Positions 2,257 to 27,520 of a stretch of DNA of 32,966 nucleotides are shown piece after piece (the first letter of the stretch is position 1; every line of letters begins with the position of its first letter). Under the pieces are notes generated by a model, which was not told the origin of the DNA, did not search any database, and saw nothing but the letters and a program-made list of their open reading frames with translations. The translations under genes were made by a program, and so were the position numbers. Source of the DNA: Candidatus Fermentibacterota bacterium (GTDB taxonomy: Bacteria > JAFGKV01); the NCBI GenBank assembly GCA_030620115.1, contig JAUXFG010000032.1:1-32966 (forward strand), in the 5' to 3' direction.

Positions 2257-2646
2257 GCCTAACCCGCATTTCTCACCGGCTTTCGAAGCGAAACGGCCGA
2301 GATGGTTCTGAATGTCAGCTCGGACTTCTCGCCGGCTTCCGTAGCGAGACAGAAGAGATGGTTGTGGATGCAAGGCTTGCGACCGAGGCTTCCGCAGGCG
2401 TATCCTCTGCGATACGTCGAGGAAGCCGACAGAGCGTAACGCAGCAGACGGAGCCATATCGGGTATCGCAGCCGAAAGCTGATGAGAAGTCCGGGCTCGG
2501 CGTGCGACCGAGGACCCCGCAGGCGTATCCCCAACGATACGCCGAGAAGGCCGACGGAGCGTGACGAAGTCCCGCGTCCGACGCGGGATGCCATATCGGT
2601 GGGTGCAGTCCCGCGTCCGACGTGGGATGAGAAATGCGGGTTAGGC
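2257..2646. repeat. R1 interspersed repeat, composite copy
   Basis: The segment is bounded by a perfect 19-bp inverted repeat, GCCTAACCCGCATTTCTCA at 2257-2275 and its complement at 2628-2646. Inside are further R1-type ends (CGGACTTCTCGCC near 2323 and TGAGAAGTCCGGGC near 2482) and hairpins such as CCCGCGTC-C-GACGCGGG. It therefore looks like two or more R1 units fused or nested. It lies directly upstream of the AftA-like gene and contains no credible ORF. R1 recurs at 11515, 19468, 20041, 20361, 24446, 26982 and 27197. Confidence 0.75.
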
Positions 2647-9184: not shown

Positions 9185-10110
9185 TCATTGTGGGCGCCGG
9201 GCCCGCAGGATGCGCCGCGGCAATCCAATGCACACGATTAGGCGTTCCACCACTGGTCCTCGATCGAACCGGGCAGGTTGGCGGCCTCATATCGAACGCC
9301 TTCTTGGTGGAGAACTATCCTGGGCTGGAACCAATGCGAGGCACTGAGTTCGCTGATCGCCTTACGCAGCACTTTGCGCGATTCGGAATTCCAATTACTC
9401 GAGGGGTTGTCACCGCTTTAGCCCGGACTTCTCACCAACTTTCGGCATTATCACAAGAGGGCATCACAGTATGCGGCGATTTTGGCAAGATACACGCAAC
9501 GAGCGTCATCGTTGCCGTAGGTACTGAATCAGTTCGCCTCGATGTTCCCGGTGCGGCCGAATTGGAGGGCAACGGCCTTTTCTACGAAGTTCGTCATTTC
9601 TTGGAATTCCACAGCCGACTCGGCCAAACAGTAGTAATCGGAGGTGGCGAAGCGGCATTCGACTATGCACTTTCTCTGGCAAGAGCAGACGCGAAAGTGA
9701 TTTTACTTGTCCGCGCTCCCTCGCCCAGGGCGCATGGGCGACTGGTGGAAATGGTGAACAGAGAACCCGCGATCAAGGTGGTGCTTCACACGAGACCACG
9801 TGCCATTCGCGCGAATCCCGCGAACTGCGCGGGATTCGTAATCGAGACAAGTGGTCCAAATGGTTCATCTACTCTGCAAGCAGACGGCATCTTGGTGGCC
9901 ATTGGCCGCAGATCCACTGCTCCTTCATTGCTTCCGGGTCTTGAGGCGGATCCCCGCAACCCCATCATGACCCGTGACCCCGGGATCTTCGTGGTAGGAG
10001 ATGCGCGGGCTGGATCTCTTGGACAACTGGCGATTGCAGTAGGGGATGGCCTTCAGGCAGCGGAGGCTGCTGTTCGACACGTACGAGAGAACCCGGCCGT
10101 CAGGAGATGA
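9163..10110 (+). CDS. Thioredoxin-reductase-like FAD/NAD(P) oxidoreductase lacking the CxxC site
   Basis: This 315-residue flavoprotein starts at GTG 9163, inside the end of the hydrolase gene. The FAD motif is IVIVGAGPAG (7-16). GQVGGLISNAFLVENYPGLEP fits the TrxB isoalloxazine region. The NAD(P) motif is VVIGGGEAAFDYAL (157-170), and the second FAD motif is FVVGDARAGSLGQLAIAVGDG. Where TrxB has YCATCDGFF, this protein reads YEVRHFLEF, so the redox disulfide is absent and classical thioredoxin reduction is unlikely. It more likely passes electrons from NAD(P)H to a partner protein or small molecule. Residues 87-95 (ARTSHQLSA) are encoded by a sequence matching the R1 repeat end. Pairing with the hydrolase suggests a shared pathway, but this is inference. 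Confidence 0.8.
   Translation: MCINEHIVIVGAGPAGCAAAIQCTRLGVPPLVLDRTGQVGGLISNAFLVENYPGLEPMRGTEFADRLTQHFARFGIPITRGVVTALARTSHQLSALSQEGITVCGDFGKIHATSVIVAVGTESVRLDVPGAAELEGNGLFYEVRHFLEFHSRLGQTVVIGGGEAAFDYALSLARADAKVILLVRAPSPRAHGRLVEMVNREPAIKVVLHTRPRAIRANPANCAGFVIETSGPNGSSTLQADGILVAIGRRSTAPSLLPGLEADPRNPIMTRDPGIFVVGDARAGSLGQLAIAVGDGLQAAEAAVRHVRENPAVRR
9422..9445 (+). repeat. R1 repeat terminus inside the flavoprotein gene
   Basis: These 24 bases (beginning CCCGGACTTCTCACCAAC and ending TTTCGG) match the outer end of the dispersed R1 element, for example at 20041 and, as complement, at 27490-27513. The segment is read in frame as part of the flavoprotein between the FAD and NAD domains. No matching opposite end is present nearby, so it is only one terminus. 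Confidence 0.7.
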
Positions 10111-11329: not shown

Positions 11330-11337
11330 GTTCGTAG

Positions 11338-11514
11338 CTTCTCAATAAGTCCGTGCATCCAACCTCTTCACCCCTCCTATCCTTTATGATGGAGGGCCGT
11401 CCGACCGCCGGCGGATCGCGTCCGCGGTATCTGGCATAGCCGGCCTCGACTCTCATCCCCAGCATCCTCGGAATTGGGATCGGAATCGCCATCGCTATCG
11501 AAATTAGCCACACC
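11338..11514. repeat. R2 repeat copy 1, left part
   Basis: This stretch begins CTTCTCAATAAGTCC, passes through TATGATGGAGGGCCGTCC and the inverted GGATCGCGTCCGCGG area, and ends in hexamer-like GATCGGAATCGCCATCGC and CCACACC. It matches 19690-19862 and 24289-24445 closely. The copy is interrupted at 11515 by an R1 element and resumes at 11815. Confidence 0.8.
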
Positions 11515-11811
11515 CCAGCCCGCGTTTCTCACCAGCTTTCGTCGCGAAACAGCTGAGATGGTGATGGCTGTGAGGCTTGCGACCGAGGACCCCGGCTCTG
11601 TCAGGGCGTAGCCTGGCTCCGCCGTGGCGACCTGTCCCGGCGAAGCTCGAAGAGCGGAGACGGAAGCCCGAAGGCGTATCCTCTGCGATACGACGAGGAG
11701 TCCGCCTGTCACGGCGTAGGCCTTGCGAAGACGGAACGAAGCGTAACAAAGCAGGCAGCACCATATCAGCCGTTGTAGTCCCGCGGCAGACGCGGGATGA
11801 GAAATGCGGGC
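11515..11811. mobile_element. R1 element inserted into R2 (about 300 bp, non-coding)
   Basis: The ends are inverted: CCCGCGTTTCTCACC on the left and GATGAGAAATGCGGGC on the right. R2 copy 1 reads CCACACC before the element and CTCTCGCC after it. In R2 copy 2 the same flanks are separated by only GTAG (19856-19874). That copy is an empty site, so R1 behaves like an inserted element. Internal sequence includes GCTTGCGACCGAGGACCCC, shared with other R1 copies, and several hairpins. It carries no transposase, so movement would need a factor encoded elsewhere. Confidence 0.7.
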
Positions 11812-11814
11812 TAA

Positions 11815-11930
11815 CTCTCGCCATCATCACTCATCCAGCTTCTCGCCGCTGAGGACCACGTGATCACACCTCAGTTCGATCCCGATTCCGATGGCGATTC
11901 CGATTCCGATCAAGGATGAAGAATGAAGAC
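11815..11930. repeat. R2 repeat copy 1, right part
   Basis: Starting CTCTCGCCATCATC, it continues with GAGGACCACGTGATCACACC and a GATTCC hexamer run (CCGATTCCGATGGCG). It matches 19867-19955. It ends just before the VapC gene on the minus strand and contains no gene. Confidence 0.75.
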
Positions 11931-12870: not shown

Positions 12871-13066
12871 CTCGCGGCAGACACGGGATACGTCCGACTT
12901 CGTATAGCCTGTGGCCACCTTTTGAGTGAAATCATTTCTTGCTGGAGAAGCGTTTGACATCTCCGTGCAAGTCAGGTATATGGATTCCAGTCTCGAATAC
13001 TTTGACGACTACGAGCACCCTGATGTGCGGTTTACCGGCGCGGTTTTCAAGAAGGAGGTTCTGATC

Positions 13067-14191
13067 ATGACAAGGTATTATCTGGTGTTTCTGATGTGTC
13101 TCCTCGTGGCAAGCGCAGCGGACGCCGCGGACGACTGGACTCAGCAGTCCCTCTCCTCCAGCCCGTCGGCGCGACGGAGCCACGCGATGGCTTACCTCGG
13201 GGGGGATCAAGCGGTACTCTTCGGGGGCTTTGATGCTTCTGCTCAGGACGCTGAGACCTGGGTGTATGATCTCAGCGATAACACCTGGACACAGCAGTCT
13301 CCCACCTCCAGCCCGTCGGCGCGATACGCCCATGCGATGGCTCACATCGGTGGGGATCAAGTGCTGCTCTTTGGAGGCTATGATGCTTCTGGGAATGACG
13401 ATGAGACCTGGGTGTATGATCTCAGCGCGAACACCTGGACGCAGCAGTCTCCCACCTCCAGCCCATCGGCGAGAAACGCCCATGCGATGGCTCACATCGG
13501 TGGGGACCAAGTGCTGCTCTTTGGGGGCTATGATGGTGCTTATGACGATGAGACCTGGGTGTATGATCTCAGTGCGAACACCTGGACGCAGCAGTCTCCT
13601 CCCTCCAACCCGTCGGCGAGAGGGAGCCATGCGATGGCGTACATCGGGGGGGATCAAGTGGTGCTCTTTGGGGGCCAGGATGGTTCTGGGTATGACGATG
13701 AGACCTGGGTGTATGATCTCAGCGCAGACGACTGGACGCAGGATACGAATACGACCCAACCTTCGGCAAGGGGTGAGTATGATCTGTCCGAGACCAGCAT
13801 GGATGGCTCCAGCTACCCGGTCCTGTTCGGCGGGTGGGATGGTAATTATGACGATGAGACCTGGACGTTCGGCGGCGGAGATTATCTATTCCCTTTCGAG
13901 GCCATGGTTTTGGACATCGAGCTGATCAGCGCCAACACAGCCAGGGTTTCGTGGTCAGTCATAACTGGCGCCACGGACTATGACTTGTACAGGAGATCGA
14001 CCGCCTTCTTCAGCGGATCAGACCCACCCTGGCAGACAGTGACGGCACCGACAACTCAATTGGACTTCTCTGACGGCATAGGGAACACAAACACGAACTA
14101 CTACTTCCTAGGGAAAGCCCGTAGTGCGACCCAAACCTCACCAGCATCCAATATCGTCGGTGAATTTGATTTCGACGCTGATATACCCTAG
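13067..14191 (+). CDS. Secreted Kelch-repeat beta-propeller protein, C-terminal tail lost
   Basis: This protein is 374 residues from ATG 13067, with a strong AAGGAGG upstream; the in-frame start at 12926 lies earlier without such a site. The signal peptide is MTRYYLVFLMCLLVASAADA. Five Kelch units follow, each with DxWTQQSPTSSPSAR, HAMAxIGGDQVxLFGG and DDETWVYDLS. They are so similar at DNA level that recent duplication or gene conversion is likely. After the propeller comes a fibronectin-like segment (VLDIELISANTARVSWS...YDLYRRS). The frame ends at TAG 14189-14191 after FDFDADIP, exactly before where a FlgD-type tail would begin. That tail is still visible downstream. The protein as encoded would be exported but not processed like its tailed neighbours. 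Confidence 0.8.
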   Translation: MTRYYLVFLMCLLVASAADAADDWTQQSLSSSPSARRSHAMAYLGGDQAVLFGGFDASAQDAETWVYDLSDNTWTQQSPTSSPSARYAHAMAHIGGDQVLLFGGYDASGNDDETWVYDLSANTWTQQSPTSSPSARNAHAMAHIGGDQVLLFGGYDGAYDDETWVYDLSANTWTQQSPPSNPSARGSHAMAYIGGDQVVLFGGQDGSGYDDETWVYDLSADDWTQDTNTTQPSARGEYDLSETSMDGSSYPVLFGGWDGNYDDETWTFGGGDYLFPFEAMVLDIELISANTARVSWSVITGATDYDLYRRSTAFFSGSDPPWQTVTAPTTQLDFSDGIGNTNTNYYFLGKARSATQTSPASNIVGEFDFDADIP

Positions 14192-19467: not shown

Positions 19468-19556
19468 TGACCCGAACTTCTCACCAACTGCCGGCTGTAA
19501 TCCCGCGTCGGCCGCGGGACGGTTTCGCTTCGAAACCCGGTGAGAAGTCCGGGTCA
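19468..19556. repeat. R1 repeat, minimal 89-bp copy
   Basis: The inverted ends are TGACCCGAACTTCTCACC (19468-19485) and GGTGAGAAGTCCGGGTCA (19539-19556), 17 of 18 paired. The core contains a GC-rich hairpin CCCGCGTCGGCCGCGGG. It is the shortest complete copy in the window and best shows the element's bounds. Confidence 0.8.
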
Positions 19557-19689
19557 GCCATGAGTTCTGCACGTCCCATTGTAGCACGTCCATGTGGTAC
19601 CTGCAAGCAGTTGCCTAACCCAAACTTCCCCTTCCTCGTCTCATCAACCTCGTCGGGAGCCTCGGCGTTTTTCCCAGATCTCCATAACT

Positions 19690-19960
19690 TCTCAATAATC
19701 CCATGCATCCAACCCCCTCCCCTTTTGTACTGTATGATGGAGGGCCGTCCGACCGCCGGCGGATCGCGTCCGCGGTGTGTGGCATAGCCAGCCACAACTC
19801 TCATCCCCATCATCCTCGGAATCGGGATCGGAATCGCCATCGGAATCGAAATCAGCCACACCGTAGCTCTCGCCTTCATCAAACATCCAGATTCTCGCGA
19901 CTGAGGGCCACGTGATCACACCTCAATTCGATGCCGATTCCGTTGAAGGATGAGGACATT
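19690..19960. repeat. R2 repeat copy 2, uninterrupted
   Basis: From CTTCTCAATAATCCCATGC through TATGATGGAGGGCCGTCC and the GATCGGAATCGCCATCGG hexamer run to CCACACC-GTAG-CTCTCGCC and CGTGATCACACC. It carries the R2 sequence without the R1 insertion found in copy 1. Weaker sequence at 19600-19689 (CAGTTGCCTAACCC) also precedes copy 3. No gene is present. Confidence 0.8.
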
Positions 19961-20040
19961 GGCGGTCATAATCATTCTCTCCGGTATGCCCCCCGAAGGG
20001 GCGTGACATACCAGCCCAGGGCAAGCCCGATAGGGCATAT

Positions 20041-20218
20041 CCCGGACTTCTCACCGACTTTCGCCGCGAAACGGCGAAGATGGTTGTGGCTGCGAGGCTT
20101 GCGACCGAGGACCCCGCAGGCGTATCCCCTGCGATACGCCGAGGAGTCCGACGGAGCATAACGAAGCAGGCGCTTCCAGATGCGGCGTTGCAGCAGATAG
20201 TTGGTGAGAAGTTCGGGG
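20041..20218. repeat. R1 repeat, ~180-bp copy
   Basis: The ends are CCCGGACTTCTCACCGAC on the left and GTTGGTGAGAAGTTCGGGG on the right. Inside is GCTTGCGACCGAGGACCCCG, then the hairpin GGCGTATC-CCCTGC-GATACGCC, then CGACGGAGCATAACGAAGC. This order is shared with the copies at 2257, 11515 and 27197. Confidence 0.8.
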
Positions 20219-20360
20219 TGACCCTGGGGCACGGAGACAAAATGCCCTCAGCCCTGACAGGGCGAGACATGGAAAGGACAATAGGATGGCCCAGTCGTTG
20301 TTGGGGGAGTTCCTTGAGCTCCTTCAGGAACACCGGGTTGAATACGATACTCGTCTTCGC

Positions 20361-20493
20361 TAACCCGAATTTCTCACCGGCTTTCGAAGCCTGTGCTGAG
20401 CGTTAGCGGAATATCTGGAAGCCGACGAAGCGTAACGAAGTCCCATGTCGGACGCGGGACCGCAGCCGAGAGTTGGTGAGAAATCCGGGTCAA
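20361..20493. repeat. R1 repeat, ~130-bp copy upstream of the glycosidase-like gene
   Basis: It begins TAACCCGAATTTCTCACCGG and ends GTTGGTGAGAAATCCGGGTC. The middle (CTGTGCTGAGCG, GAAGCCGACGAAGCGTAACG) is a variant shared with 27410-27440. The spacer from 20494 to the start codon at 20578 is AT-rich and may carry the gene's promoter, but no hexamer pair is convincing. Confidence 0.75.
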
Positions 20494-22385: not shown

Positions 22386-23117
22386 GTCGCGGTAGGGATG
22401 CCGGTTGCCCGGCACCCCCCGCACAGATCCGTACGTGAGGAACTACCTCATACGGCTCCTGCCTCGGGTCAAACGCGCAACCGCACCGACGAAGATGGAT
22501 ACGTGATATGGACATTCAATCACGCACCCAATCTCTGCCGGGTCGCTTGCCGTATGCACGCCAACGCTTGTTTCAGACTTTCCCGGCCCAGTGTCCGGAG
22601 TCTGCTTTGTTCGCACGCCTTCCCCTTGGCCAGCCTCCTTCTCTCCACCCTCTCCGCCGGTTGAGCCGCAGCTCGTCCTTTGTTCGAGGGCTTCCTCGAT
22701 ACTATGAGGCTGTCCGACTCCCTGCTTCCGTGCATCACAGCCGTACCTCCTTGGAGTTCACTGTGCGGACCCCGGCACAATCTTCCGGGGCCAGTTGCAG
22801 GGTCTCCCGATTCCCGTGTAGGTTGCTTCCGCGCATGCGAGGGGTCTCTGACCCCGCCAGGCCATCGCACTCCTTGCCATCTCGGCGTGCGATGTATTGC
22901 CTTCCCAATACGAAGAGACGGTCGGCACCTGAAACGCGAGTTCTGATTTCGGGGCTCAATACCGTGCCTGCGCGTACCCCTACTAACGCTTCAGCCGCGG
23001 TGTTACCACCGCCGCCGCATAGCTCGGGGCCGTTGTGGTTGGCTAAACCCTCAACGTTGGACTCTTTCATTCCTTGCTACCTACCGGTTTTCATCGGCGC
23101 TTTCCTTCGTCTCGAAC
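22386..23117 (-). mobile_element. Group II intron, ORF-truncated and degenerate
   Basis: Read on the minus strand, the 3' part contains domain V: GAGCCGTATGAGG at 22458-22446, a small loop, then CCTCACGTACGGATC ending at 22426. A domain VI hairpin follows (GGTGCCGGGCAACCGGC), with the end CCCTACCGCGAC at 22386. The 5' part has GAAAGCGCCGATGAAAACCG and AAGGAATGAAAGAGTCCAAC, then GTTTAGCCAACC, typical of domain I of bacterial introns. The likely 5' end is near 23117 (GTTCG, versus consensus GTGYG). The maturase is reduced to its N-terminus (22520-22735). Domain V has GGATC instead of the usual GGTTC, so the pair with the catalytic AGC triad is altered and splicing is doubtful. TTCGAGACGAAG occurs at both boundaries. 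Confidence 0.75.
22520..22735 (-). pseudogene. Truncated N-terminus of group II intron reverse transcriptase/maturase
   Basis: From ATG 22735, preceded by AAGGAGG, 71 codons read MHGSRESDSLIVSRKPSNKG, ERRRLAKGKACEQSR and LRTLGRESLKQALACIRQA. This matches what I recall as the usual first segment of intron-encoded reverse transcriptases (SDSLIVPxKxxNK, ...LARIRQAA). It then stops at 22520, and only about 60 bases lie between it and domain V. The fingers, palm, X and endonuclease domains, about 350 or more residues, are missing. The intron cannot supply its own maturase. Confidence 0.7.
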
Positions 23118-24194: not shown

Positions 24195-24288
24195 TGAGCG
24201 AAGATGAGGCCGAAACCGAACTGTGCCAAGACGGGCTTGCCACGGCGAAGCGCACGCGTAGACGGAAACAGTTGCCTGGCCCGAACTT

Positions 24289-24445
24289 CTCAATAATCCC
24301 GCGCACCCAATCTCCTCCCCCTTTTACTCTGTATGATGGAGGGACGCGTTTCATCGCGTCCGCGGTGTGCAGCATAGCCGGCCACGACTCTCATCCACAA
24401 CATCATCGGGATCGGAATCGGGATCGCTATCGAGATCATCCACCC
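24289..24445. repeat. R2 repeat copy 3, left part
   Basis: It begins CTTCTCAATAATCCCGCGC, contains TATGATGGAGGGACGCG, GCGTCCGCGGTGTGCAGC and the GATCGGAATCGGGATCGC hexamer run, and ends CATCCACCCC. It is then joined to an R1 fragment at nearly the same position as the insertion in copy 1. Confidence 0.75.
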
Positions 24446-24515
24446 CCTAACCCGCACTTCTCACCGGCTTTCGTCACGAAGTGGTGTAGTTGGCTGTGGC
24501 TGTCCCGCACCCAAC
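24446..24515. repeat. R1 fragment attached to R2 copy 3
   Basis: CTAACCCGCACTTCTCACCG starts an R1 left end, followed by GTCACGAAGTGGTGTAGTTG, which matches the copy at 27197. It breaks off near 24510 with no right end. The R2 right half is also absent here, so a deletion may have removed both. Confidence 0.6.
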
Positions 24516-26981: not shown

Positions 26982-27066
26982 GCCCGGACTTCTCGCCGGC
27001 TTTCGTAGCCCTGTCCTGAGCCTGCCTAAGGGCGAAACGGTCCCGCGCAGTGCTCGGGATTCGCCA
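26982..27066. repeat. R1 fragment
   Basis: TAGGCCCGGACTTCTCGCCG and GCTTTCGTAGCCC begin an R1 left end. CGAAACGGTCCCGCGCAGTG follows. It has no right end before the R4 sequence begins at about 27093. Confidence 0.6.
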
Positions 27067-27196: not shown

Positions 27197-27520
27197 CCTC
27201 AACTCGCACTTCTCGCCGGCTTTCGTCACGAAGCGGTGTAGTTGGCTGTGGCTGCAAGGCTTGCGACCGAGGACCCCGGCTCTGTCAGAGCGTAGCCTGG
27301 CTCCCGGCTATATATGACAACGCCGTGACAAGCCGCCGTGGCGACTTGTCACGGCGAAGCTCGAAGAGCGCAGACAGAAGCCCGGAGGCGTGTCCTCTGC
27401 GAGGAGCCTGTGCTGAGCGACAGCGAAGTATCTGGGGGCTGATGAAGTCCGCCAGCTGGCGGAAAGAAGCCAGGCCATAGCGACTGCTGCAGCCGGAAGC
27501 TGGTGAGAAGTCCGGGTTAA
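27197..27520. repeat. R1 repeat, ~320-bp copy with internal long hairpin
   Basis: The left end is CGCACTTCTCGCCGGC and the right end GCTGGTGAGAAGTCCGGG. It contains GCTTGCGACCGAGGACCCC as in other copies. It also holds a 12-bp perfect inverted repeat (CGCCGTGACAAG at 27321-27332, complement at 27345-27356), which the short copies lack, and CTGTGCTGAGCGACAGCG, shared with 20390. Confidence 0.75.

Follow-up and report, generated by a model that had tools for sequence, protein, structure and literature searches.

The window analysed here is a stretch of 32,966 nucleotides from a Candidatus Fermentibacterota bacterium, in which one copy of the repeat R2 is split by about 300 bp of the repeat R1. 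The questions raised by this locus are whether R1 is an inserted element and, if so, what moves it. A preliminary description had read R1 as a non-coding element, MITE- or REP-like, that is moved or copied into defined sites by a transposase acting in trans. The reading preferred here, with a probability of roughly 0.87, is that the R1 family is a MITE which an IS1380-family DDE transposase would insert in trans, through IS1380-type ends, at YTAR-like sites.

Occupied and empty sites of R1

The arrangement of the three R2 copies of the window, namely the split copy 1, the continuous copy 2 and copy 3 with its R1 left end, was confirmed when the coordinates were re-read (Table 1). In copy 1, CCACACC (11508-11514) is followed by the left 4-mer, R1, the right 4-mer and CTCTCGCC. 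Copy 2 reads CCACACC-GTAG-CTCTCGCC (19856-19874). Copy 3 reads CCACCCC, CTAA (24447-24450) and an R1-type left end at 24451, with the R1 right end and the R2 right half missing. The insertion described previously holds, better founded than first stated and with corrected limits, as the 4-mers flanking the element proper belong to the target.

Table 1. Positions of R1, R2 and related elements in the window
Feature	Position	Strand	Remark
R1, complete IS1380-type MITE	11519..11810	+	292 bp, TIR CCCGCGTTTCTCACC / CCCGCATTTCTCATC
Left 4-bp flank of R1, CCAG	11515..11518	.	Decayed YTAR target duplication; empty sites with one GTAG or variant
Right 4-bp flank of R1, CTAA	11811..11814	.	
R2 copy 1, left half	11336..11514	+	
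R2 copy 1, right half	11815..11925	+	Right boundary approximate
R2 copy 2, uninterrupted	19686..19960	+	Empty site is a single GTAG, 19863-19866
R2 copy 3, left half only	24284..24446	+	
CTAA and left end of a different R1 subtype	24447..24502	+	Same R2 position as R1 in copy 1; right end lost
177-bp family element inside another repeat	20041..20217	+	Five empty copies elsewhere, single GTAA-like 4-mer
Element interrupted by a nested 177-bp element (2319-2495)	2263..2640	+	
314-bp family member	27203..27516	+	
126-bp family member	20364..20489	+	
83-bp family member	19471..19553	+	
Single end (TTAG and TIR), truncated copy	9418..9455	+	
Single end, truncated copy	26983..27020	+	

In BLAST searches of the source genome, R1 had 67 matches and the left half of R2 had 42, which makes each of them a repeat family. 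Empty sites were sought by fusing the left and right flanks of complete elements and running the fused sequences against 1.23 Mb of the genome. Eleven R2 copies, window copy 2 included, run uninterrupted across the R1 site with a single GTAG, GTTG, GTGG or similar 4-mer, and in two of these, L188 and L194, small indels adjoin the insertion site. An R1-type element occupies one and the same position in two R2 copies of the window, as would suit the idea that R1 is an internal part of R2, with R1-less copies as deletion products. This idea is almost certainly wrong: the eleven copies are continuous at one point instead of being broken at random points, most of the hundreds of R1-type ends in the genome lie away from R2, and copies 1 and 3 carry different subtypes. 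Given these different subtypes, two insertions at this one R2 position are likely, although copy 3 is without its right half. Reuse of this position and of R1 interiors is favoured since R2 and R1 are themselves repeated sequences. Short repeats of the GGGATCGGAATCGCC type occur on one side of R2, with their reverse complement on the opposite side (window 11450-11500 and 11870-11925), and R2 could in turn be a hairpin or a mobile element; the left part of one copy comes after CCCGAACTTCTCA (24280), a sequence similar to an R1 end.

Two further sets pair occupied with empty sites. The host repeat of the 177-bp element at 20041-20217 has five uninterrupted copies with GTAA, GTAC and GCAA; it is a second repeat adjoining R2 copy 2 (window 19985-20320; GGGGCGTGACATACCAGCCCAGGGCAAGCCC... 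CCCTGGGGCACGGAGACAAAATGCCCTCAG), of which five or more other copies exist. In the second set, a 177-bp element (L129, 15900-16076) lies inside another R1 copy with the exact flanks GTAG and GTAG, and six of the eight undivided R1 copies displayed for this site have one GTAG (ATAG in L057 and GTGG in L053). This is a textbook 4-bp target duplication. The left and right 4-mers were identical in 22 of 95 complete copies, compared with 10.5 expected by shuffling, and none of 5000 shuffles was as high. The signal comes from positions 1 and 4, which the YTAR consensus constrains least. Most of the duplications in the source genome have decayed. The "defined sites" of the preliminary description hold only in the sense of a 4-bp YTAR-like target.

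Extent of the repeat family

The layout of the family ends is YTAR-CCCGNRYTTCTCACC...GGTGAGAARYNCGGG-YTAR. With one mismatch allowed, the end-plus-flank pattern YTARCCCGNRYTTCTCRYCNNC had 431 matches in the 4.1-Mb genome (210 forward and 221 reverse) and the reversed pattern had 0, an excess beyond chance. For alignment, 309 ends were chosen by pattern with one mismatch allowed and with the flanks free to vary. The TIR columns were nearly invariant and the element boundary was sharp, the outer four bases being Y-T-A-R and the composition further out nearly flat. When end pairing was limited to 450 bp, 95 complete copies of 45-434 bp were obtained, most commonly of 177 bp and none with a transposase. 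Concordant with the earlier view of R1 as non-coding, no IS1380 transposase gene was present inside it. At gathering scores, Rfam gave no match on the elements of the window and six other loci. Between other end pairs, 450-2600 bp apart and read by eye, lay either unremarkable genes or older copies. A candidate element of 1378 bp in L132 was rejected: no transposase was recognised in it, and it seems to pair a truncated left end with the right end of a different copy. At window 2263-2640, L199 (13780-13956) and L140 (3397-3573), an element carries another inside it, each time at the same inner point, which suggests that the nested composite was itself copied.

The distribution of the family is patchy across several bacterial phyla. 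A stricter end pattern was absent from 97 other genomes taken as relatives, including both of the same family. The source genome is an isolated lineage, with these two same-family genomes in the comparison set and all others related at domain level only. The end pattern was present in 39 contig stretches, comprising MAGs of Gemmatimonadota (ARS67), Acidobacteriota (Thermoanaerobaculales, Holophagae and others) and Planctomycetota, bins labelled Gamma- and Deltaproteobacteria, and one isolate; the MAG labels may be wrong and the bins mixed. The cultured isolate Acanthopleuribacter pedis had 50 ends, and in its phylum a match was found in 17 of the 396 genomes drawn, A. pedis included. The eleven carrier genomes behind these stretches, A. 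pedis among them, had 3 to 122 ends each, and 0 with the reversed pattern. Outside the source genome, 21 of 29 complete copies had an exact 4-bp duplication and 19 of 29 were 173-177 bp long. In the MAG Ust_6 (L085, L094, L099 and L113), minimal elements were observed: near-perfect palindromes of 53 bp in which two R1-type ends meet back to back, with CTAG or CTAA duplicated at each. Viral contigs had no end match; of two IS1380 relatives there, the one scanned (L261) had no paired ends.

The R1-type family looks undescribed in the open literature, which is a part of all literature and excludes ISfinder: no paper searched there had these end sequences in a relevant context, and IS1380 is not mentioned in the MITE review PMC10969869. 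Among bacterial MITEs moved by IS transposases, MITEPye1 (IS1182) of Paracoccus yeei (PMC11578231) and MITEAba12 (PMC10969869) are, like R1, short and gene-free, with the TIRs of an IS family and direct repeats, and MITEPye1 also shares a long RNA-level hairpin with the R1 family. In contrast to MITEs of this type, the R1 family crosses phyla at near-fixed length and has a far higher copy number (431 ends, against 1-3 or 1-22 copies). A repeat of several little-studied phyla, abundant and seemingly without a name, is here tied to a known transposase family. Since its ends and target are defined, its activity is directly testable. MITEs and IS1380 are both well known, so the surprise to a specialist should be moderate. 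ERIC of the Enterobacteriaceae and Vibrionaceae is, like the R1 family, a high-copy imperfect palindrome of fixed core length with a conserved fold, and its target is TA. R1 differs from it in sequence, target and phyla; the IS family of R1 can be identified, and its duplication is of 4 bp. The 431 ends in 4.1 Mb are high relative to most copy numbers in the MITE review, though ERIC, with 30 to 711 copies, reaches more (PMC10969869).

IS1380-type ends and candidate transposases

A blind plasmid search with a 35-bp MITE end gave 18-bp exact matches, four of which were termini of IS1380 elements, and a separate plasmid search, with the Ust_6 defective IS1380 protein as query, arrived at these same locations. 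The plasmid IS1380 elements with matching ends are 1654-1657 bp long and read CTAG-CCCGCATTTCTCAC, with CTAG on both sides. The P. putida element (pKF715A, 1655 bp) reads CTAG-CCCGCATTTCTCACAGG...CTGTGAGAAATGCGGG-CTAG, and the Bradyrhizobium elements (1654 and 1657 bp) have the same layout. Of the terminal bases of the outside-genome R1 consensus CCCGCATTTCTCACC, 14 of 15 are those of the P. putida and Bradyrhizobium ends. CTAG on both sides was observed for IS1380 elements of P. putida, Bradyrhizobium, Rhizobium, Marinobacter and Sphingobium. The layout is conserved in more distant IS1380 elements: that of Marinobacter reads CTAG-CCCGGATTTCTCATGAG, those of Sphingobium and Acidiphilium are built alike, and IS1380A has TCGA. 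In the carrier bin Ust_6, the defective IS1380 has the ends CTAG-CCCGCATATCTCACC with CTAG flanks. An end scan of the B. japonicum, S. fredii, ISAzs25 and ISPa33 members gave no clear answer.

The IS1380 family (IS1380A and the P. putida pKF715A, Bradyrhizobium and Marinobacter plasmid elements) therefore shares with R1 the ends CCCGCATTTCTCAC, the CTAG flanks and a 4-bp duplication (TCGA for IS1380A). Its members differ from R1 in being about 1.55-1.67 kb long with a transposase, and the subterminal sequence of R1 is unrelated. The match is confined to the ends, and the next ~15 conserved R1 bases (CAGCTTTCGTCGCGA) were not seen in any IS1380. A MITE sharing only its ends with an IS is classed as type II (PMC10969869), so R1 is a type II MITE in these terms. 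It is a derived element and not an IS1380 member, because no IS1380 transposase gene lies inside it, and it is an IS1380-type MITE and not a REP, because the end-sequence search matched IS1380 termini.

From the ends and the target, we infer that an IS1380 transposase moved the R1-type copies, and mobilisation of R1 in trans, as a MITE, is probable. A DDE transposase of the IS1380 family, supplied in trans either today or at an earlier time, would recognise the ~15-bp ends CCCGNRYTTCTCACC and insert the element at a 4-bp YTAR-like site, the 4 bp being duplicated. The hairpin might then aid the persistence of the element, for instance by holding its two ends close to each other or through an effect on the shape of read-through transcripts.

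A transposase with matching ends, as the preliminary description anticipated, was found elsewhere, in the IS1380 family, but not in the source assembly. The best NF033539 match in this assembly scored 37 bits against a cut-off of 180, and the protein belongs to a multi-copy IS with different ends. A PF13701 search of the genome gave a weak match only, and the P. putida IS1380 protein had no match in a search run without a positive control. Among the eleven other carriers, only one had an IS1380 profile match above the cut-off, and five, including A. pedis, had no IS1380 at E<=1e-3. With no full IS1380 in the source assembly or in most carriers, the driving enzyme has been deduced and not located. 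The source assembly consists of 296 contigs, several of which begin or end within or close to R1-type elements, and an IS present in many copies could therefore lie in an assembly gap; the repeat probably contributes to the assembly breaks. IS1380 fragments in G002, G099 and G107 were discarded, as no matching ends were near them, and so was the complete IS1380 of SMBSF41 (L158), which had no clear matching ends. No other transposase was recognised between paired ends at the loci examined by eye.

The elements are palindromic, abundant and present in Acidobacteriota, with GTAG at some sites, as might be expected of repeats of the REP/REPIN or TIR kind whose driver is a RAYT/TIRYT tyrosine (Y1, HUH) transposase. 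A 4-bp target duplication with exact empty sites is, however, a DDE feature not expected of Y1 transposases, and the R1 ends equal those of IS1380. RAYT-like genes flanked by TIRs, with GTAG tags also involved, are described in Acidobacteria, which favours the tyrosine transposase, but R1-type ends lack GGGGWSAS, the TIR motif that one TIRYT group is reported to have (PMC3733652). The GTAG-tagged REP/REPIN and TIRtron repeats (PMC3733652) resemble R1 in being abundant palindromes outside genes, some of them edged by GTAG; R1 is several times their length and has TIRs as well as a 4-bp duplication on both sides. By its size and its two-sided 4-bp flanks, R1 does not fit the 20-40-bp palindrome tagged at one end that characterises REP/REPIN, and no link to a tyrosine transposase was found at the loci read by eye between paired ends. 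Such a driver is very unlikely, and the "REP-like" part of the preliminary description was abandoned in view of the two-sided duplication and the IS1380-type terminal repeats.

Other DDE elements of the source genome were also considered as drivers. The IS701-family element of L076 (977-2524 or 981-2520, about 1540 bp) has CTAG on both sides and starts with CCC, and 4-bp duplications are known for IS701 (PMC2266710). A multi-copy IS at L009/L260 (source-genome C122), L257, L258 and L259 encodes a 579-aa transposase that is weakly related to the IS1380/IS4 profiles, and its copy number and distant likeness to IS1380 would suit a driver. But the IS701 ends are CCC(T/C)ACAACGAC and not CCCGNRYTTCTCACC, the shared right end of the multi-copy IS is GAAAATCTGTG (...CCATGAAAATCTGTG), and the 579-aa transposase is absent from other carriers, with no homologue in the 13 other genomes tested. 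Both elements were rejected for their different ends, and a driver of this local kind is highly improbable. The L076 element belongs to a different family with the same kind of target as R1.

Hairpin of the 173-178-bp class

Copies of 174-178 bp fold end to end, at -67 to -136 kcal/mol over both strands. In an alignment of 30 copies, from which the structure was itself derived (which favours it) and in which related copies inflate the counts, 37 stem pairs were formed in 92.6% of cells and 22 pairs had changed on both sides, with 144 such cells compared with 53 in shuffles. This covariation signal was destroyed by sliding the partner columns. One strand always folded better, in 22 of 22 oriented copies outside the source genome and in 58 of 58 within it. 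Inner G-U exceeded A-C outside the source genome (145 to 58; 67 to 34 with one copy per genome, p=0.001), and no excess was observed within it (319 to 301). The orientation of the elements had no significant bias relative to the strand of neighbouring genes.

The 173-178-bp element might be kept as a structured RNA or ssDNA with a role of its own, mobility being secondary, which is compatible with the MITE reading. Its near-fixed length in several phyla with a diverged interior, the covariation, the constant better-folding strand and the G-U excess with one copy per genome all point in this direction. But G-U and A-C are equal in the source genome, the 58 copies are related and so not independent, arm-to-arm conversion (suggested by L080) would yield covariation without selection, and a significant bias relative to neighbouring genes is lacking; a role of this kind is unlikely. 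Selection on RNA is possible. We offer only tentatively, as a rather unlikely proposal, that this is a cross-phylum mobile element whose folded strand (RNA or ssDNA) is itself selected, length and fold being kept while the interior turns over. Such a strand might, for example, be recognised by a transposase or by a host factor. The near-fixed length and covarying hairpin make it a testable question whether MITE folds are selected.

Two further features were observed in the window. A Kelch-repeat ORF lies at 12926-14191, with a DNA periodicity of ~150 bp at 13083-13864, and an Rfam match to group II intron D1-D4-6 (RF02005, 180.6 bits) lies at 22842-23065 on the minus strand.
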